Shown here: piece by piece, positions 7,581-53,984 of the stretch
How positions within the stretch are numbered: position 1 is the first letter of the stretch
How the letters are laid out: each line of letters opens with the position of its first letter
Assembly: GCA_945888515.1 (NCBI GenBank)
Contig: CAMDAD010000005.1
Span: 1 to 64,000 of the forward strand
Length of the DNA: 64,000 bases
Reading direction: 5' to 3'
DNA from: Akkermansia muciniphila
GTDB lineage: Bacteria > Verrucomicrobiota > Verrucomicrobiia > Verrucomicrobiales > Akkermansiaceae
Program-made: the position numbers and the translations under genes
The notes under the pieces: generated by a model
Told to the model about the DNA's origin: nothing
What the model saw: the letters and a program-made list of their open reading frames with translations, nothing else
Databases searched by the model: none

Positions 7581-8009
7581 ATGAAATCCCTCTTGTGGTG
7601 TTTTTTCAGCAGTTGGTTGATGATGGGTCTTGGTTCGGCAGAGCCGCAGGAAAATCTTGCGCAGCCCGTCGTAGAATCGGTGGAGAATGCTGACTGGATC
7701 AAGGCGCATCTCGATCAGGAAGTAACGGTCAAAGGCGTGCCAAATGCGAAATCGGCGGTATCGGCGGCGGGACATTTTTTCTACAATTTCGATCGCAGTG
7801 AACTCACGCTTTTTTGCTTCAAGGCGGTGGCGGGGACCTTGCCCGATGATAAAAAACCCAGTGCCTTGGTGGGGAAAACAATACAGGTCACGGGAAAACT
7901 GGTGCTTTACAAAGAGAAACCGCAGATCGTCATCCGAAAAGCCGAGCAAATCGTGGTCGTGGAGTCGCAACCCGCTACGGATCGTGCGCCGAAAAAAGAA
8001 GTGGAGTAA
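7581..8009 (+). CDS. Exported small OB-fold-like protein of unknown function (142 aa)
   Basis: The N-terminus is a signal peptide (LLWCFFSSWLMMGLGSAEP). The mature part has alternating strands (EVTVKGVPNAKSAVSAAGHFFYNF, then VGKTIQVTGKLVLYKEKPQI) that resemble small exported OB-fold proteins with the pattern of a tRNA-anti/NirD-like fold: a short strand VTVKG, then a 'GK.I.VTGKL..Y...PQI.I' strand pair. I cannot name a function. The C-terminal end is basic and hydrophilic. It lies between the DUF2141 gene and yicC on the plus strand, 78 bp after the former and 29 bp before the latter. Confidence 0.65.
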   Translation: MKSLLWCFFSSWLMMGLGSAEPQENLAQPVVESVENADWIKAHLDQEVTVKGVPNAKSAVSAAGHFFYNFDRSELTLFCFKAVAGTLPDDKKPSALVGKTIQVTGKLVLYKEKPQIVIRKAEQIVVVESQPATDRAPKKEVE

Positions 8010-44574: not shown

Positions 44575-44976
44575 ATGCATCCCTTATTTAAGAAAGCTGA
44601 CGAACTAAGCAAAACCGTGATCGGTGCAGCCATTGAGGTTCACCGATTGAAAGGCCCTGGATTGATCGAGAGCATTTACGAAAAATGCCTCATGCGAGAA
44701 CTCGACTTACAAAAGCTACAATCAGTAAATCAAAAGGTGGTATTAATCGAATACAAAGGCATCACTTTTGAAGAACCGCTCCGTTTCGACATCCTCGTTG
44801 AGGATTGCTTGCTGCTGGAACTCAAGTGCGTGCAAACCGTGCTACCCATTCATAAGGCGCAACTGTTGAGCTACATGAAGCTGCTCAATATCCCTTTGGG
44901 ACTTTTGATCAACTATCATGAACTGAAGTTGGTGGACGGTATCCAACGCATGATTCTACCCGGAGCGAATCAATAA
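44575..44976 (+). CDS. GxxExxY family protein (PD-(D/E)XK nuclease-like)
   Basis: A 133-residue protein named after its GPGLIESIYEKCL motif: G29-x2-E32-x2-Y35. Downstream RFDILVEDCLLLELKCV carries Asp72, Glu82 and Lys84 spaced like a PD-(D/E)XK nuclease core, and the rest (YMKLLNIPLGLLINYHELKL, 'LINF' type end) is typical. Such genes occur in many copies in several phyla, often inside or next to repeat sequences; their molecular role is unknown. It starts 4 bp after the left repeat copy and ends 60 bp before the right copy, so the gene and the two repeats form one unit of about 640 bp. No transposase or target duplication is seen. Confidence 0.9.
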   Translation: MHPLFKKADELSKTVIGAAIEVHRLKGPGLIESIYEKCLMRELDLQKLQSVNQKVVLIEYKGITFEEPLRFDILVEDCLLLELKCVQTVLPIHKAQLLSYMKLLNIPLGLLINYHELKLVDGIQRMILPGANQ

Positions 44977-45324: not shown

Positions 45325-46326
45325 ATGATCACTCGATTTTTCCTTTGCTGTTTTATTGCTACGGTGGGTGCCTGGGCGGCGCCTGCGAATCAAGCGACGT
45401 GGATTGATCCCGCCGTGGCATTGCGGGAGGATCCGGATTTTGCGGTTCAGGGGGAATACCGCAGTGCCGGCGAGGCCGGTGCATGGGGCGCGCAGGTGGT
45501 GGCTCTGGGCGGTGGGGCGTTTGATGCTTATTTGTTAGAAGGCGGACTACCGGGCGCGGGGTGGGAACCGGGAAAAACGCGCCTCAAGCTGACGGGAGCG
45601 CGCAAGGGGGAAGCGATTGAGTTTGCGGAGCAGGCCACGAAGATCCAGTGCCGCTGGTCCGAGGGAAAACTCCAGGTGACTCTTGCCGATGGAGCAAAGC
45701 ACATGCTGACGCGCCTCGAACGGCAGAGCCCTACCCTGGGAAGCAAAGCGCCTGCAGGGGCCGTGGTGTTGTTTGATGGAACATCCGCGGATGGCTGGGA
45801 AAAAGGGAAAATGGAAAACGGTTTCTTGCAAGCGACGAGCTGCATGAGCAAGCAACACTTTGGCGATTACAGCCTGCATGTGGAATTCCGCACACCGTAC
45901 AAGCCTCAGGCACGGGGACAAGGGAGGGGCAACAGTGGCATTTATCTGAATGGTCGCTGGGAAACGCAGGTGCTCGATTCCTTTGGTCTTGAAGGACGTG
46001 ATAACGAATGCGGCGGTGTGTATTCCCTCTCGCCGCCGCGCCTGAACATGTGCCTGCCGCCGCTGACGTGGCAGACCTACGACGTGGATTTCACAGGGGC
46101 GACGTTTGATGCGGAGGGCAAACGCATGGCTTGGCCGCGTGTCACCGTGCGGCTCAATGGCGTGGTGGTGCATGAGAATTTGGAGTTGAAAAAAGACTGC
46201 ACGGCGGCGGCGCCACTTTCTGCGCCCTTGCAGACGGCAAAGGGACCGATTTTCCTGCAAGACCACGGCAATCCGGTGGTCTATCGTAACATCTGGGTTA
46301 TGCCTCGGGAGCAGGCGGGCAAGTGA
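45325..46326 (+). CDS. Exported DUF1080 (3-keto-disaccharide hydrolase-like) protein
   Basis: A 333-residue protein with a signal peptide (MITRFFLCCFIATVGAWAAP). The second half (about 145-330) is a DUF1080 domain: VVLFDGTSADGWEKG, DYSLHVEFRTPYKP, RGNSGIYLNGRWETQVLDSFG, the LPPLTWQTYDVDFTG segment and WPRVTVRLNGVVVHENLELK, ending GPIFLQDHGNPVVYRNIWV. This lectin-like beta-sandwich is common and expanded in Verrucomicrobiota and Planctomycetota. Some members act on 3-keto-glycosides, others have no tested activity. The N-terminal ~140 residues are less conserved. Its 3' end overlaps the convergent tilS by 29 bp. Confidence 0.92.
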   Translation: MITRFFLCCFIATVGAWAAPANQATWIDPAVALREDPDFAVQGEYRSAGEAGAWGAQVVALGGGAFDAYLLEGGLPGAGWEPGKTRLKLTGARKGEAIEFAEQATKIQCRWSEGKLQVTLADGAKHMLTRLERQSPTLGSKAPAGAVVLFDGTSADGWEKGKMENGFLQATSCMSKQHFGDYSLHVEFRTPYKPQARGQGRGNSGIYLNGRWETQVLDSFGLEGRDNECGGVYSLSPPRLNMCLPPLTWQTYDVDFTGATFDAEGKRMAWPRVTVRLNGVVVHENLELKKDCTAAAPLSAPLQTAKGPIFLQDHGNPVVYRNIWVMPREQAGK

Positions 46327-48056: not shown

Positions 48057-48209
48057 ATGACTGACACAATAGAGACGAAACAGGTGACGAAGGTGGGGAC
48101 CCTTGACTGGGTGGCGAATCTGTCTCTCCCTTCGCTGAACGACAATCATTGGATCATGGGCGCGATTGTCACAGGGCTATTTCAATCCGTTATCCTTCCC
48201 GTCCGATGA
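48057..48209 (+). CDS. Small open frame (50 aa) at the head of the export operon
   Basis: ATG 48057 is preceded by GAGGAAAA, a good Shine-Dalgarno. The peptide starts MTDTIETKQVTKVGTLDW and has a hydrophobic C-terminal half, NHWIMGAIVTGLFQSVILPV. It has no Cys and no GG leader-cleavage motif. Its TGA overlaps the ATG of the next gene (ATGA), so translation is coupled. It may be a secreted-peptide precursor, an assembly factor or just a regulatory leader; the sequence alone cannot say. Because it is short, coding is supported mainly by the ribosome binding site and coupling. Confidence 0.55.
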   Translation: MTDTIETKQVTKVGTLDWVANLSLPSLNDNHWIMGAIVTGLFQSVILPVR

Positions 48210-48559
48210 AGCGATCAAAAGGACCATCGGGGAATTACATCGAACGTATTTACCGCGCTCTGGAGACGGTATCTCAGGAATCCACCTTGGATCCGCTGGC
48301 GAGGTGCGCACCGGCGCTGGACCAGCAGGGATTGCGTGTGAATTTGTATCGATACTCACTTTCAAAGGCTGTGTGGCAAGCTCATCTCGACTCGCCCGTG
48401 GTAGTGTGGAGCGAACCCGAAAAGCGCTTCCTGATGATTCTCCAAGCAGGAACATTCCGGGTGAGGATCATCACGCAGGGTGATGCCGTGGATCATGTGA
48501 CGACCGTGTCGCGCGCGGGCTTGGCGAAACGTCTCGGCTTGAGTAGTGTGAATCAATAA
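48206..48559 (+). CDS. Free-standing C39-like domain protein (117 aa)
   Basis: The sequence pattern (YIERIYRALETVSQESTL, LDQQGLRVNLYRYSLSKAVW, DSPVVVWSEPEKRFLMILQ, TFRVRIITQGDAVDHVTTVS, GLAKRLGL) parallels the N-terminal non-catalytic C39-like domain of HlyB: a short helical start, an 'L...GL.V' strand, then 'lPALVWREDGRHFIL' and 'yLIFD' strands. No catalytic Cys is at the expected place. In HlyB this domain is fused to the ABC protein; here it is a separate gene directly before an ABC gene that begins at its transmembrane part. I read this as a split domain. Initiation overlaps the preceding stop by 4 bp. Confidence 0.6.
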   Translation: MKRSKGPSGNYIERIYRALETVSQESTLDPLARCAPALDQQGLRVNLYRYSLSKAVWQAHLDSPVVVWSEPEKRFLMILQAGTFRVRIITQGDAVDHVTTVSRAGLAKRLGLSSVNQ

Positions 48560-48565
48560 CTGGAG

Positions 48566-50317
48566 GTGGCTCTGATCCATCCGAAGCTCATGGCGGAGTC
48601 TGCGAGCGCACAAACGGTCATGCGTGAAATGGGCGACACCGCTCAGCATGCGAGCGACTCACATACAGATCACTATCACATGCCGCCTTTTCGCCGTTTG
48701 CTCAAGATCCTGAGTCCGGAACGCCGCGAGATCCTTCTGTTGCTGGTATTCGCGTTTTTCTCCGGCATTCTCTATCTGGCTCTTCCTCTGGTGATTGACA
48801 CGGTGGTCACCAATCTAGCATTCGGTTCGCAAACCCAGCCTTACTTTCAGGCCTTGGTGGTGATTGGTCAATTGCTGGCTGCTTGTTTGTTGCTGCAGGC
48901 ACTGATCATCGGCTTCCAGTATTATGTGGCGGAGCTCATTCAGCGCCGCATCATTGTGCGCATTGCCGGGGACTTGTCATATCGCCTTCCGCGTGTGGCC
49001 GCGCGCGCCATTGACCACGTCCATGCGCCAGAACTAGTGAACCGTTTTCTGGATTCGGTGACCGTCCAAAAAAATACAGCGTTTTTCTTGCTTGATGGGA
49101 TTAATGTGATTCTTTCGACATTGATTGGTTTGATCTTGCTTGCGTTGTATCACCCCTACCTGATTGTATTTGTTGCGATTCTTATTTTTCTCATCGTAGC
49201 ATTTATATGGCCCTTCGGTCGGAGATCGGTGGACTCCTCAATTGCCGAGTCGCGTTGCAAGTATGATTTGGTCGGATGGTTTGAGCAGGTCGCTACTTAT
49301 CCATTCATGTTCAAAGGACGTGGTGGCTATGAAATGGCCTACCAGCGAACGAATGAACTGGCCGCGCAATACGTGCATGCACGCCGCTATCATTTCAAAC
49401 TGGTGCTGCGACAAATCTCCGGCTTGCTATTCGTTTCAGTCATCGCGAGCGTGGCACTCCTGATTCTGGGGGTTACCCTAGTCTTGCGGCAGGAACTGAC
49501 TCTGGGGCAACTAGTAGCAAGCGAACTGATCATGAGCAGTATCGTGGCTGCTGTGATCAAGTTGGGGAAAAAACTGGAAACATGGTATGATACCTTGGCG
49601 GCTACCGATAAGCTAGGCCACTTGTTGGATCTGGAGACTGAGTCTGAGGAGGGCGAGGTGATCACCACGCCGCACGACAGCAAGGGCATGAAAGTAGAGG
49701 CCATAGGAGTAAGCTTCGGGTATCACGAGGGGTATCCGATTTTCGCAAATCTCAGCTTCACTCTGGAGCCGGGCACACGCGCTTGCATCTGCGGGCCACA
49801 GGGTAGTGGTGTCAGCTCCTTGCTTGATCTGTGTTTTGCACTGCGTGATACGAACGATGGCTACCTCAGTTTTGACGGGCTGGACATGCGTTCCTGGCAT
49901 CTGGAGTCCTTGCGAAATTCGATGGAGCTGCTGCGCCGTGATGAGTTCGTATCCGGCACAGTGATGGAAAATCTCCGCCTCGGCCGCAGTGATATTACGG
50001 TCGATGAAATCCACACGGCTCTGAAAACGGTGGGCATGCTCGACGAATGCCTGCATCACTCCGATGGCCTAGATATGATGCTGCAAGTCGGCGGATCTCC
50101 TTTTTCCACACGTCAACGAGTTGCCTTGTTGATTGCGCGCTCGTTGGTGCAGAAGCCGCGCTTGCTGCTCATCGATGAAATTTTTGACGGTCTGGACACG
50201 CAAACGTTCCGCCTGCTGACCAGTGTGGTGTTCGATCCCAAGCGGCCCTGGACCGTGGTGGTGGCTACCCGCATGAGTGAGGTGCGCGATATGTGCCAAC
50301 AACGAATCGAGCTCTGA
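48566..50317 (+). CDS. ABC-type exporter, fused permease and degenerate ATPase (583 aa)
   Basis: A type I exporter-like half-transporter: an N-terminal polar stretch (1-38), six membrane helices (about 44-320), then a nucleotide-binding domain (about 365-583). The ATPase motifs are unusual. Walker A reads CGPQGSGVSSLLD (Val in place of the invariant Lys), the Q-loop region ELLRRDEFVSG lacks Gln, the signature region is GGSPFSTRQRVAL rather than LSGGQ, and the H-loop is VVATRMSEV (Thr for His). Walker B LLLIDEIFDGLD is intact. It lacks a fused C39 domain; the preceding gene appears to provide one. The start is uncertain: a GTG at 48566, a CTG at 48572 with the best spacing to GGAGG, or ATG 48590. 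Hydrolysis at this site is doubtful. Confidence 0.85.
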   Translation: MALIHPKLMAESASAQTVMREMGDTAQHASDSHTDHYHMPPFRRLLKILSPERREILLLLVFAFFSGILYLALPLVIDTVVTNLAFGSQTQPYFQALVVIGQLLAACLLLQALIIGFQYYVAELIQRRIIVRIAGDLSYRLPRVAARAIDHVHAPELVNRFLDSVTVQKNTAFFLLDGINVILSTLIGLILLALYHPYLIVFVAILIFLIVAFIWPFGRRSVDSSIAESRCKYDLVGWFEQVATYPFMFKGRGGYEMAYQRTNELAAQYVHARRYHFKLVLRQISGLLFVSVIASVALLILGVTLVLRQELTLGQLVASELIMSSIVAAVIKLGKKLETWYDTLAATDKLGHLLDLETESEEGEVITTPHDSKGMKVEAIGVSFGYHEGYPIFANLSFTLEPGTRACICGPQGSGVSSLLDLCFALRDTNDGYLSFDGLDMRSWHLESLRNSMELLRRDEFVSGTVMENLRLGRSDITVDEIHTALKTVGMLDECLHHSDGLDMMLQVGGSPFSTRQRVALLIARSLVQKPRLLLIDEIFDGLDTQTFRLLTSVVFDPKRPWTVVVATRMSEVRDMCQQRIEL

Positions 50318-50355
50318 AAATCGGAATACGAAACTGACTAACCATAGCCCTTTTT

Positions 50356-51663
50356 ATGAACTCCCCAGCATCTAACAAATTCAAATCAATAGAACGTTGC
50401 CGACTACCCGCGATTAATCTGACGGGCTCAAATCGCTTACCGCATTTGTTCAGTCGCGCGCTCATCATTGCCTTTTTGATACTGTTTGCCTTTGTGGCGC
50501 TCGCCCCCTGGCGTCAGTTCGTGCGCGGTTCAGGTCGCGTGATCGCCTATGATCCGCTGGAGCGGCGCATCAATGTCGAGGCCTTGGTGTCAGGTCGCGT
50601 CAGCAAACTTCACATCAATGAGGGGCAGAAAATCAAGCAGGGCGATCCCATTGCGGAAATCCAAGACAACGATCCGAATTTTCTCGAAAACCTCCGCGCT
50701 CAGCGGACGGCGGCGATGAATCGCATCGACCTAGTGAAAACCCGCGTCGAGGCACTAGAGTCGCAGATTGCTCAGCAGACTATGGCCAAGGAACAGGCTC
50801 TCGATGCCGCGCGCCAAAAAGTCAGTGCGGATAAAATCGCCGCAGAAACTGCTCTCCTCGACTTCACTCGAGTCGACAATCTCTTTCAAAAAGGCATCAG
50901 CTCGCGTCGTGAGTTTGAGGCTGCGATTCTTCGTCGCGACTCCACTGCGGCGAACTTGCTATCCGCCGAGGCGACTCTGAAACGTACGGACAATGAGTTC
51001 AATGCTCTCATCTCCTCGACCACGGCCTCGCGCCAATCCGCTCGCAGCGACATTGCCAAAGCGCAGGAAGAGTTGACGGGTTTGGAAATCCGCGTCAGTC
51101 AAAATATGCGGCAGGTGATCACCTCCCCACGCGATGGCATCGTGCTGCAAGTGCCTGTGACGGAGGGGAGCTACTTGAAACCTGGTGATCCGCTTTGCGT
51201 GGTGATTCCCAATACGGAAACGCGCTACGCTGAGGTGTGGGTGGACGGCAATGACGTGGCGCTGATCCGTGCGCGCAAGGAGGAAAATGGCGTGGTCACT
51301 CCGGGAAGCCCTGTGCGACTCGTGTTCGAGGGATGGCCGGCGATTCAGGCAATCGGTTGGCCACAACTCGCCGTGGGTTCCTTCGGCGGTGAGGTGATGT
51401 ATGTGGATGCTGCCACGGATGATGGCCAAGGCAGATTTCGGGTTCTCGTGGCACCGGAAGCGGACGTGGTGGACCGTGGCGATGGTCCGGTTTCTGTTCC
51501 TTGGCCGGATGGGGAGCGTTGGCTACGACAGGGAGTGCAGACGAATGCCTGGGTTCTACTGGATGAAGTACCGCTGTGGTTCGAGTTGTGGCGGCAGATG
51601 AACGGATTCCCTGCCATCGGCAAGGGGATGAAAGAGGAAACCGAGAAATTGAAAAAGAAATGA
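50356..51663 (+). CDS. HlyD-type periplasmic adaptor protein
   Basis: A 435-residue membrane-fusion protein. A single N-terminal membrane segment (ALIIAFLILFAFVALAPW, about 34-51) leads to a lipoyl half-motif (VEALVSGRVSKLHINEGQKIKQGDPIAEI), a long coiled-coil hairpin (about 105-255), a second lipoyl half (ITSPRDGIVLQVPVTEGSYLKPGDPLCVV), then beta-barrel and membrane-proximal parts, ending in a basic tail. Such adaptors link an inner-membrane ABC protein to a TolC channel, the two genes on either side. It follows the ABC gene by 38 bp and the TolC gene starts at its stop codon. Confidence 0.9.
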   Translation: MNSPASNKFKSIERCRLPAINLTGSNRLPHLFSRALIIAFLILFAFVALAPWRQFVRGSGRVIAYDPLERRINVEALVSGRVSKLHINEGQKIKQGDPIAEIQDNDPNFLENLRAQRTAAMNRIDLVKTRVEALESQIAQQTMAKEQALDAARQKVSADKIAAETALLDFTRVDNLFQKGISSRREFEAAILRRDSTAANLLSAEATLKRTDNEFNALISSTTASRQSARSDIAKAQEELTGLEIRVSQNMRQVITSPRDGIVLQVPVTEGSYLKPGDPLCVVIPNTETRYAEVWVDGNDVALIRARKEENGVVTPGSPVRLVFEGWPAIQAIGWPQLAVGSFGGEVMYVDAATDDGQGRFRVLVAPEADVVDRGDGPVSVPWPDGERWLRQGVQTNAWVLLDEVPLWFELWRQMNGFPAIGKGMKEETEKLKKK

Positions 51664-53084
51664 CCCGGCGTCGCCTTTCTCGTCTCAGCTGGCTCTGCTG
51701 TCTGTTGACACCATTCTCGCTTTACAGCGCTCCCTTGCAACTGGATGACGTGCTTTTGACCTTGCGCACCCAGTATCCTCCTCTGGTAGCCGCTTGGCTC
51801 CAACAGGATATAGCCAATGGCAAAATTCGTCAGGCGGACGGGGCCTTCGATCCGATGCTCATCGCCTCGCTGAATTTCCGCCCGCTCGATTATTATGAGG
51901 GCGCCAATATGAGCTTTCTCATCGATCAACCGCTGCTCTCCGGCGGCAGCGTCTACGCAGGCTATCGATTGAGCACGGGAACACTTCCGGACTACGATCG
52001 CAAAGACCGAACCTCTTCTTCCGGAGAGGGAGTTATGGGCGTGAGGATTCCGCTTCTGCGAGATCGGACCATCGATGCCCGTCGCGCCAACATGGGAAAA
52101 GCCGCTGTCGATCGGGAACTTGCGGATCCTCTCATCTTGCGGCAATATCTCACGTTCCACCGCGCGGCGCGCATCGCTTTTTACAACTGGATCGCCGCGG
52201 GGGAGCGATTGGAAATCGCTGAAAAGGTGTTAGGCATCGCCAAAAAGCGAGATGAATTTCTCAAAAAACAATCGGAGGAAGGTGCGATCGCGGCGATTGT
52301 TCTCGTCGATAATCGACGTTTGGTCGTCAGTCGTGAAATTGCGGTAATTCAAGCGTCTCGCCGGTTTCAAGCCGCCAGCATCGAGCTTTCCTTATTCCAC
52401 CGCGACCCACAAACTACCGAGCCGATTTTGCCGCTTCGCGCCCAGTTGCCGCAGGCATTCCCGCAGCCCCAGCCTGTCGATCAACTGCAATTTATTTCCG
52501 ATCGTGGTCGTGCCGCATTTCGTAGACCGGAAATTCGTGAAATGGATCTCTTGTTGCGCAAAGGAAGCATCGACAAGAGTCTCGCAAATAACAATTTGAA
52601 GCCGAACCTCGACTTGGCGATGGAGCTCAATCAAGCGATTGGTCATGATGTGCCCAAGGATATCGAGGATACCGAAATCATGGGATTGCTTCGTTTTTCT
52701 GTTCCTATCGGCAGAAATGAAGCCAAAGGCCGGCTCGAAGCCATCGATGCCAGTATCAAACAACTGCAGCAACGCCGGAAGTTTGCGAGTGAACAAATCA
52801 CAGCCGAATCGAACAATACCTACCAAGAACTAGCGGCTGCGCTGGAGGCCTTGGCTCAGAGCAAAGTCAACGTCGAACTGGCTCGTCAACTTGAAGTCGC
52901 GGAGAGCGAGCGCTTCGCCCAAGGAGCGACAGATTTACTCACGCTGCAGATCCGCGAGCAATCCACCTTTGACGCAGAGACACAAGAGATTGATGCGTTT
53001 CTGGCATTCTACCGAGCACTGGCCGATTATCAGGCGGCCGTCGCAGCCGATGCTCCCGCCTCACTGCTCAACACCGCCAAGTGA
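51660..53084 (+). CDS. TolC-family outer-membrane efflux/secretion channel
   Basis: A 474-residue protein with a signal peptide (about 1-24, LCCLLTPFSLYSA) and two outer-membrane-factor repeats. Features include LDDVLLTLRTQYPPLVAAWLQ near the N-terminus, DQPLLSGGSVYAGYRL and RIPLLRDRTIDARRA (strand regions), long helices around 150-280, and the second half with NNNLKPNLDLAMELNQ, FSVPIGRNEAKGRLEA and QLEVAESERFAQGATDLLTLQ. The last is the typical end of a helical barrel repeat. It starts with ATG at 51660, overlapping the hlyD-type stop (ATGA), which puts it in the same operon. Confidence 0.9.
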   Translation: MTRRRLSRLSWLCCLLTPFSLYSAPLQLDDVLLTLRTQYPPLVAAWLQQDIANGKIRQADGAFDPMLIASLNFRPLDYYEGANMSFLIDQPLLSGGSVYAGYRLSTGTLPDYDRKDRTSSSGEGVMGVRIPLLRDRTIDARRANMGKAAVDRELADPLILRQYLTFHRAARIAFYNWIAAGERLEIAEKVLGIAKKRDEFLKKQSEEGAIAAIVLVDNRRLVVSREIAVIQASRRFQAASIELSLFHRDPQTTEPILPLRAQLPQAFPQPQPVDQLQFISDRGRAAFRRPEIREMDLLLRKGSIDKSLANNNLKPNLDLAMELNQAIGHDVPKDIEDTEIMGLLRFSVPIGRNEAKGRLEAIDASIKQLQQRRKFASEQITAESNNTYQELAAALEALAQSKVNVELARQLEVAESERFAQGATDLLTLQIREQSTFDAETQEIDAFLAFYRALADYQAAVAADAPASLLNTAK

Positions 53085-53162: not shown

Positions 53163-53984
53163 TTAGAACGCGTAAGTCACGGAAACGCCGCCGTATACGT
53201 CATCACGTGTTTCGTTTACGTTGAGATTTTTACGTGTCTCAAGGCCGAAGTTGCATGCGATGTATGGCGTCACTGTAACCGAATCGGTGGCTTTGTAAGG
53301 AGCCGTCAGGGCCGTGCGAATGTGCGTGAGACCTTCTTCGTCGGAGCCATTGTTGGTGTAGTAATCAATGGCGTAGCCCATTTGCACGACAGGCACCAGT
53401 GAGAGCTTGTCATTGACTTCATAAGTGTAATCCACACCCGCCTCGAAATACCAGCCATCGATCTTGGTGTCGAACCAGCTTCCCAGGTAGAGGTTGAAAT
53501 CGCCAAAGCCTTTGACCATGGTAAGACCGACATCGAGGGCGTTTTTGACTTCAGCATCATAAATGCCACCGCCATTGGAAGCGCCGTCGATCTCACCGGA
53601 GAAAGTTTCGAAGAAATGGTAGTTGGTCACGACCAAGCCGAAGGTGGCGAAATCGTGCTCGTAACTCAGGGAGGCAACCAAGTCCATTTCGGAGTAATCC
53701 AGGTCACCACCACCACCGGAAATGTTGGTGTCAACGGTTTCTGTGTAGAGTGCTCCCAAGCCGAGAGTCAGCTTGTCAGCGAGCGGTGCCGAGAGGTTCA
53801 CACCACCCCAGAAGTTGTTGTTGGAGAACCAAAGACCACGGAAGTAGTAGGAGCTGTCGAAGCCGGCGCTCGCGCTGCCTGTGATCCATGGTTCGGTCGT
53901 TGCCGTCTGGGCGGATGCCATGCTGGACAACGCTGCAGTGCACGTGAGGATGCTTACGTTGGATAATCTCGATAGTGTTTTCAT
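53163..53984 (-). CDS. Outer-membrane beta-barrel protein (TorF/Gcw_chp-like, 273 aa)
   Basis: A signal peptide ending SMASAQ precedes a series of amphipathic strands: GSASAGFDSSYYFRGLWFSN, LTLGLGALYTETVD, DLDYSEMDLVASLSYEHDF, FGLVVTNYHFFET, FNLYLGSWFDTKIDGWYFEA and a final aromatic YGGVSVTYAF suited to barrel insertion. FDSSYYFRG resembles the Gcw_chp family of predicted outer-membrane barrels, whose function is unknown. It has its own strong terminator and a gene-free upstream region (53985-54276), so it is a single-gene unit. Confidence 0.85.
   Translation of the reverse strand: MKTLSRLSNVSILTCTAALSSMASAQTATTEPWITGSASAGFDSSYYFRGLWFSNNNFWGGVNLSAPLADKLTLGLGALYTETVDTNISGGGGDLDYSEMDLVASLSYEHDFATFGLVVTNYHFFETFSGEIDGASNGGGIYDAEVKNALDVGLTMVKGFGDFNLYLGSWFDTKIDGWYFEAGVDYTYEVNDKLSLVPVVQMGYAIDYYTNNGSDEEGLTHIRTALTAPYKATDSVTVTPYIACNFGLETRKNLNVNETRDDVYGGVSVTYAF

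Follow-up and report, generated by a model that had tools for sequence, protein, structure and literature searches.

The 64,000-nucleotide stretch analyzed here (the window), taken from a 3.36-Mb Akkermansia muciniphila genome, carries an exporter operon on its forward strand at positions 48206 to 53084, made up of an open reading frame (ORF) for a C39-like domain, an ATP-binding cassette (ABC) ORF, and genes for an HlyD-type adaptor and a TolC-type channel. We propose that it encodes a tripartite exporter in which the ABC-fold protein is a pseudo-ATPase and transport is probably driven by ion-motive force, a reading to which we assign a probability of about 0.5. Alignments show that the predicted nucleotide site of this protein, hereafter the pseudo-ABC protein, is degenerate in both half-sites of one polypeptide, across the order of the source genome ("the order" throughout), and under purifying selection.

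A search for the family among 386 genomes of the order found it in 70, from 11 of 50 genera, and a draw from the phylum gave 8 positives among 387 genomes, two of them outside the order. The loci of all 70 order genomes and of the two outside-order genomes were aligned. The first-pass annotation, which was made from the letters of the window, had read a Walker A motif without Lys (GPQGSGVSS), an Arg in the Q-loop, the signature FSTRQ, a Thr at the H-loop His, and an intact Walker B motif (LLLIDE), and all of these are real at the positions where they were read. Four canonical half-exporters of the same genome, placed in the same alignment, have the Walker A Lys, the Q-loop Gln, [LF]SGG[QE], the Walker B DE, and the H-loop His. 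Judged as an active type IV ABC exporter, the window's protein has a transmembrane domain (TMD) of the ABC_membrane type (PF00664, 39.8 bits against a cut-off of 28) and lacks the Walker A Lys, Q-loop Gln, LSGGQ, and H-loop His, although Pfam ABC_tran is still detected (55.6 bits).

The losses are shared by the whole order. Not one of 70 rows has the Walker A Lys, its place being taken by Ala (34), Cys (12), Ser (9), Val (8), Ile (3), Thr (3), or Met (1). The Q-loop Gln is absent from 69 of 69 rows (Arg in 66, Asn in 3), and the H-loop His from 68 of 68, all of which have Thr; the residue that follows is Arg in 69 of 69. The first signature glycine is present in 33 of 70 rows and the second in 0 of 69, so that the two never occur together. 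The P-loop glycines are found in 70, 69, and 70 of 70 rows and the Walker B Asp in 69 of 69, and the position of the catalytic Glu holds Glu in 53, Asp in 13, and Lys in 3. Intactness of Walker B, as first claimed, therefore stands within the order; it fails in the wider family described below. Of the two Verrucomicrobiota members from outside the order, one combines a Lys with an eroded P-loop and the other has a canonical-looking Walker A; neither has the Q-loop Gln, the H-loop His, or the signature glycines.

The nearest relative, at a locus we call L061, has an ABC protein 88 to 89% identical to that of the window. Between the two, the nucleotide-binding domain (NBD) has a nonsynonymous divergence (dN) of 0.065 and a synonymous divergence (dS) of 1.12, a ratio of ∼0.06 with dS near saturation; the values are 0.069 and 1.70 for the TMD, 0.043 and 0.84 for HlyD, and 0.071 and 1.39 for TolC. 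The annotation had suggested a selected, nonstandard NBD rather than decay, and both the recurrence of the losses in 70 order genomes and the purifying selection bear this out. The losses recur with the same neighbors wherever the contig is long enough, and no homolog with a canonical Walker A and H-loop was found in this gene order.

The heritable unit is ABC-HlyD-TolC. HlyD follows the ABC gene in 68 of 70 order genomes and TolC is present in 63 of 70, the misses being contig ends. Orthologs of HlyD occur in 24 of 97 genomes (the source genome included), exactly the same 24 that have the ABC gene. No other flanking gene is common to more than 4 of these 24 loci, and no linked substrate was recognized among them. 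Outside the order, one locus (G407) has another ABC gene ∼7 kb away, and TolC was not recognized in it.

The unit is also found on plasmids. A tblastn search of 72,556 plasmid records returned HlyD relatives in 20, all of them among the first 21 records of the ABC match list. The carriers are Sphingomonadales and, in Bacteroidota, Persicobacter, Aureibacter, and Riemerella; 17 of the 20 records were examined, and all 17 carry consecutive ABC, HlyD, and TolC genes. Two further plasmid ABC genes (loci L189 and L197), from Sphingobium TKS (nearly whole) and Sphingopyxis (cut), run into an IS3 element, with an IS3-family transposase directly after the pseudo-ABC gene; the 5 kb fetched around them showed neither HlyD nor TolC. 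The Q-loop Gln and H-loop His are absent from the plasmid members, and both signature glycines never occur together. All 13 intact Sphingomonadales rows lack the Walker A Lys and the Walker B Asp, and 5 of the 13 keep the second signature glycine. All four rows from Bacteroidota still have a Lys at the Walker A position, although at least one P-loop glycine is gone, as are the Q-loop Gln, the H-loop His, and both glycines of the signature. In six members from outside the order, Pfam recognized ABC_membrane in 6 of 6 and missed ABC_tran in 3 (Novosphingobium, Sphingobium, and Aureibacter; it was detected in Riemerella, Persicobacter, and the outside-order Verrucomicrobiota member G319). By their sequences, the same trio with equally or more eroded NBDs occurs in three phyla, with the breadth in Bacteroidota and Alphaproteobacteria resting on plasmid records. 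TonB-dependent receptor genes lie one to two genes downstream of the operon on two Novosphingobium plasmids and one Aureibacter plasmid (L180, L182, and L186), a possible hint at a small exported ligand. The Riemerella "plasmid" (L181) has the core genes rplU, rpmA, murA, murB, and miaA flanking the operon and may be a piece of chromosome.

A comparison of 68 Verrucomicrobiota rows and 17 plasmid rows with a set of 11 canonical exporters picked out 14 positions at which a residue nearly fixed in the family occurs in 30% or less of the canonical set. All of them fall within the TMD or at its end: L71, N159, Q168, K169, H196, S229, K232, W238, Q283, L305, Q315, A318, E320, and Y341. The family-fixed NBD positions (G432, G501, G510, P531, and T563) are mostly common to canonical exporters too. 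Glu320 lies within a hydrophobic segment (residues 313 to 331), and ComA and PCAT1 align Asn there.

Because the losses hit both half-sites in one chain, no dimer containing the pseudo-ABC protein would have a canonical site, and with the catalytic contacts also missing, ATP would not be hydrolyzed. We postulate that the NBDs serve as a scaffold or gate beneath the TMD and that ion-motive force acting through the TMD most likely drives export. Candidate ion-coupling residues are Glu320 in transmembrane helix 6 (TM6) and the fixed polar residues N159, K169, H196, K232, and Q283. The TMD would hand the substrate to HlyD and then TolC, and the C39-like N-terminal domain, where present, would dock the substrate, a role proposed for this domain in HlyB. 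Within the order, where the new NBD residues are themselves conserved, the NBDs may plausibly bind a ligand or form a locked dimer. A broader version holds that a natural class spanning Verrucomicrobiota, Bacteroidota, and Alphaproteobacteria gave up ATP, keeping the NBD as a structural relic and the TMD as an ion-coupled secondary transporter that feeds HlyD-TolC. We advance it tentatively, at somewhat less than even odds; the TMD tree has long branches between the family and the outgroup, and monophyly of the family is not firmly shown.

Several observations weigh against an exporter that runs on ion-motive force with a pseudo-ATPase. The near-invariance of the P-loop glycines and the Walker B Asp in the order suggests that something is still bound. 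The Lys at the Walker A position is kept in the four Bacteroidota and the two outside-order Verrucomicrobiota rows, and single signature glycines persist (the first in 33 of 70 order rows, the second in 5 of 13 Sphingomonadales rows). Ion coupling itself is argued from conserved residues and from one precedent, LmrA, whose export of ethidium from cells is reported still to require that ATP be bound and hydrolyzed (PMC6155054). Some of the fixed polar residues map to loops or coupling regions, where their role may be in assembly, not ion coupling. A full-length AlphaFold2 (AF2) model built from 5 sequences has a predicted local distance difference test (pLDDT) score of 48.8, too poor to judge the nucleotide site.

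An alternative hypothesis, which we consider unlikely, is that the site has been rewired: in the order, the Q-loop Arg and the H-loop Thr-Arg would replace Lys and His, and ATP or another ligand would be bound and gate the channel, perhaps with slow hydrolysis. The near-invariance of the new residues in the order (Arg in 66 of 69 rows at the Q-loop, Thr in 68 of 68 and Arg in 69 of 69 at the H-loop) speaks for such a site, as does the retention there of the P-loop glycines and Walker B Asp. In addition, all 66 rows with the Q-loop Arg have an acid where the catalytic Glu would be, and all 3 rows with Asn have Lys there, but this co-variation is a single event on the tree and is weak as proof of a salt bridge. 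The second signature glycine is gone order-wide, and Sphingomonadales have kept the operon despite the loss of the P-loop Lys and Walker B Asp from all 13 intact rows, which argues that nucleotide binding is not needed family-wide.

A somewhat more doubtful possibility is a nonenergized, gated conduit or sensor, channel- or receptor-like, that opens a path into HlyD-TolC. CFTR and SUR are ABC proteins without pump function, and the loss of motor residues fits. Against this, a permanently open inner-membrane path would be costly, and the strong conservation of the TMD, with its fixed charged residues, suggests a regulated cycle.

We regard as improbable the idea that the protein pairs with a canonical half-exporter, encoded at another locus, that hydrolyzes ATP for the heterodimer. 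Exporters with one degenerate site are a known design (PMC7756269), and one half-exporter type of the source genome (L129) is matched in 24 of 24 carriers of the operon. In the known cases, however, the defects are shared between the halves and one canonical composite site is left, whereas the pseudo-ABC chain by itself has a degenerate Walker A, Q-loop, H-loop, and signature, which would make both composite sites of any dimer defective. The annotation had raised the possibility of pairing with a second ATPase; no second ABC gene lies within the operon in any locus examined, and another ABC ATPase occurs in only 2 of 70 order neighborhoods, on the opposite strand. Nor does any of the genome's four other half-exporters track the operon, on counts that depend on the E-value cut chosen per search: among the 24 carriers and 73 noncarriers, respectively, the L127 type is found in 20 and 47, the L129 type in 24 and 67, the L130 type in 8 and 42, and the L128 type in 8 and 20. 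None of the four thus behaves as a dedicated partner, and the pattern would be compatible with a shared one. Decay or artifact of the NBD in this genome, which might be suspected of a copy that carries a stop codon, is refuted by its relatives, with the same losses in 70 order genomes and 19 plasmid loci (one cut before the later motifs) and low dN/dS, and we give it almost no weight.

That stop codon accounts for what had first looked like a split exporter with a separate C39-like protein. The C39-like and ABC ORFs are in one frame with a single TAA between them, and in the L061 locus the N-terminal domain and ABC form one 704-amino-acid ORF. Among the 69 other carriers in the order, the domain is fused in 66 and absent in 3, all of one genus; it is separated in the window only. 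The split can therefore be ruled out as a trait of the exporter: it is one stop codon in one of 70 order genomes. Compared with that of L061, the N-terminal domain has a dN of 0.074 and a saturated dS of 2.97. The low dN indicates that the domain has not decayed and so that the stop arose recently, does little harm, or stems from the assembly; this genome's copy may accordingly be a recent mutant, a two-piece version, or a product of misassembly. In another genome (L155, G500), the pseudo-ABC coding sequence is interrupted within a single contig and continues in a second frame.

The name "C39-like" had been guessed from sequence. Pfam and PDB profile searches with the N-terminal domain gave no useful match, and the label draws its support from fold comparison of an AF2 model of the relative's domain (L061; 5 sequences, pLDDT 82.5). 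The model aligned with the PCAT1 peptidase (Z 8.4, root mean square deviation [rmsd] 3.7 over 119 residues), a Vibrio C39-like structure (3b79; Z 8.3, rmsd 3.5 over 100), and the HlyB C39-like domain (3zua; Z 7.4, rmsd 3.3 over 98), with Z values of 7 to 8.4 being modest by the tool's own note. Foldseek E-values were weak, with Josephin-2 first (0.004) and PCAT1 next (0.0073). The domain looks peptidase-dead, unlike PCAT proteins with their catalytic Cys and His, because no Cys or His is invariant among 19 N-terminal domains; the catalytic positions themselves were not mapped. The genus without the domain (L082, L083, and L154, from G082, G067, and G557) also has the Q-loop Asn and the Lys at the catalytic Glu position.

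It is doubtful that the 50-codon ORF upstream is a gene, and the suggestion that a small peptide gates the exporter loses its footing, since the peptide is not conserved as a protein. In tblastn searches it had no counterpart in the 23 other loci (best E value, 0.39), and the L065 and L084 loci have no such short ORF ending at the start of the N-terminal domain. L061 also has the frame open, from the same start to the same ATGA overlap, but residues agree at 14 of 50 positions and similarity is greatest at third codon positions (33 of 51, versus 27 and 24 for the others), a pattern without the mark of a selected protein. The frame shared with L061 (there upstream of position 7641) is possibly a leader for translational coupling, or chance.

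The features of the locus are collected in Table 1. Rereading the sequence confirmed the ORFs of the first-pass annotation, its two ATGA overlaps (at 48206 and 51660), and its gaps of 6 and 38 bp.

TABLE 1 Features of the pseudo-ABC exporter locus, in positions of the window
Feature	Position	Strand	Remark
50-codon ORF	48057..48209	+	Doubtful gene; no tblastn counterpart in 23 other loci
C39-like N-terminal domain of ABC protein	48206..48559	+	Ended here by in-frame stop; same frame as ABC ORF
Single in-frame TAA between N-terminal domain and TMD	48557..48559	+	This genome only
Pseudo-ABC exporter, TMD and degenerate NBD, 583 amino acids after stop	48566..50317	+	Pfam ABC_membrane, ABC_tran; family alignments
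Glu320 in TM6	49523..49525	+	Fixed in family; absent from 11 canonical exporters compared
Degenerate Walker A GPQGSGVSS, without Lys	49793..49819	+	Lys in 0/70 order rows
Q-loop Gln replaced by Arg	49934..49936	+	Arg 66, Asn 3 among 69 order rows
Degenerate signature FSTRQ	50102..50116	+	Order: first Gly 33/70, second Gly 0/69
Walker B LLLIDE, kept here	50162..50179	+	Order: Asp 69/69; then Glu 53, Asp 13, Lys 3
H-loop His replaced by Thr, then Arg	50267..50272	+	Order: Thr 68/68; next Arg 69/69
HlyD-type periplasmic adaptor	50356..51663	+	Pfam HlyD_3, Biotin_lipoyl_2
TolC-type outer-membrane channel	51660..53084	+	Pfam OEP; present in 63/70 order carriers, other 7 at contig ends

Upstream of the operon, the window encodes a PDDEXK_3 nuclease-superfamily protein (44575 to 44976, forward strand; PF13366, 123 bits) and a 3-keto-disaccharide hydrolase domain protein (45325 to 46326, forward strand; PF06439) that has a homolog in the same place in L061. 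Downstream and convergent is a gene for a 273-amino-acid protein without a Pfam match (53163 to 53984, reverse strand), which is also there in L061 and L062.

The closest known systems are the HlyB/HlyD/TolC type I secretion systems of the C39-like subclass, which have the same three genes in the same roles, with an N-terminal C39-like fold, a type IV ABC exporter TMD, an HlyD adaptor, and a TolC channel; the PDB sequence matches of the ABC protein include ComA, PCAT1, and HlyB. The pseudo-ABC family differs from them in an NBD without most ATPase residues and in the many members that lack the N-terminal domain. Against the NCBIfam HlyB and LssB models, the protein scored 134.7 and 169.9 bits, where the cut-offs are 725.55 and 693.1, and none of the ABC proteins tested scored above the cut-off of any NCBIfam model.

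To our knowledge, degenerate ABC exporters all keep at least one working site. LmrA, for its part, keeps a working NBD and is not known to have an HlyD/TolC operon, and LmrA-MD, its membrane domain, is a truncated version of it. What these two share with the pseudo-ABC proteins is an ABC membrane domain, which in their case is reported to act as an ion-coupled translocator (PMC6155054). Degenerate sites that leave one canonical site are well known in ABC exporters (PMC7756269, in the text accessible to us); TM287/288, TmrAB, and the ABCC family likewise have degenerate motif residues under selection, but they keep one canonical composite site where the pseudo-ABC chain would allow none. The secondary SecA_DEAD loci of Planctomycetes-Verrucomicrobia-Chlamydiae (PVC) and other bacteria, Verrucomicrobia included, also have HlyD/OEP modules without a normal ABC motor; they encode a SecA-type ATPase and M50 proteins and, per their authors, no ABC homolog (PMC4452313). 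A review of tripartite systems covers C39-like domains and a heterodimer that has a degenerate site; no fully degenerate exporter was met in the part consulted (PMC8277102). No description of a pseudo-ABC/HlyD/TolC family was recognized in a limited literature search that covered few subscription papers.

ABC exporters are defined by their ATP motor, and here both half-sites have been lost in one chain within a selected operon found in three phyla. Annotation of its members as "ABC transporter ATP-binding protein" probably misstates what this family does. If our proposal is true, transport by an ABC membrane domain without ATP hydrolysis, which has long been debated, would become testable in nature.

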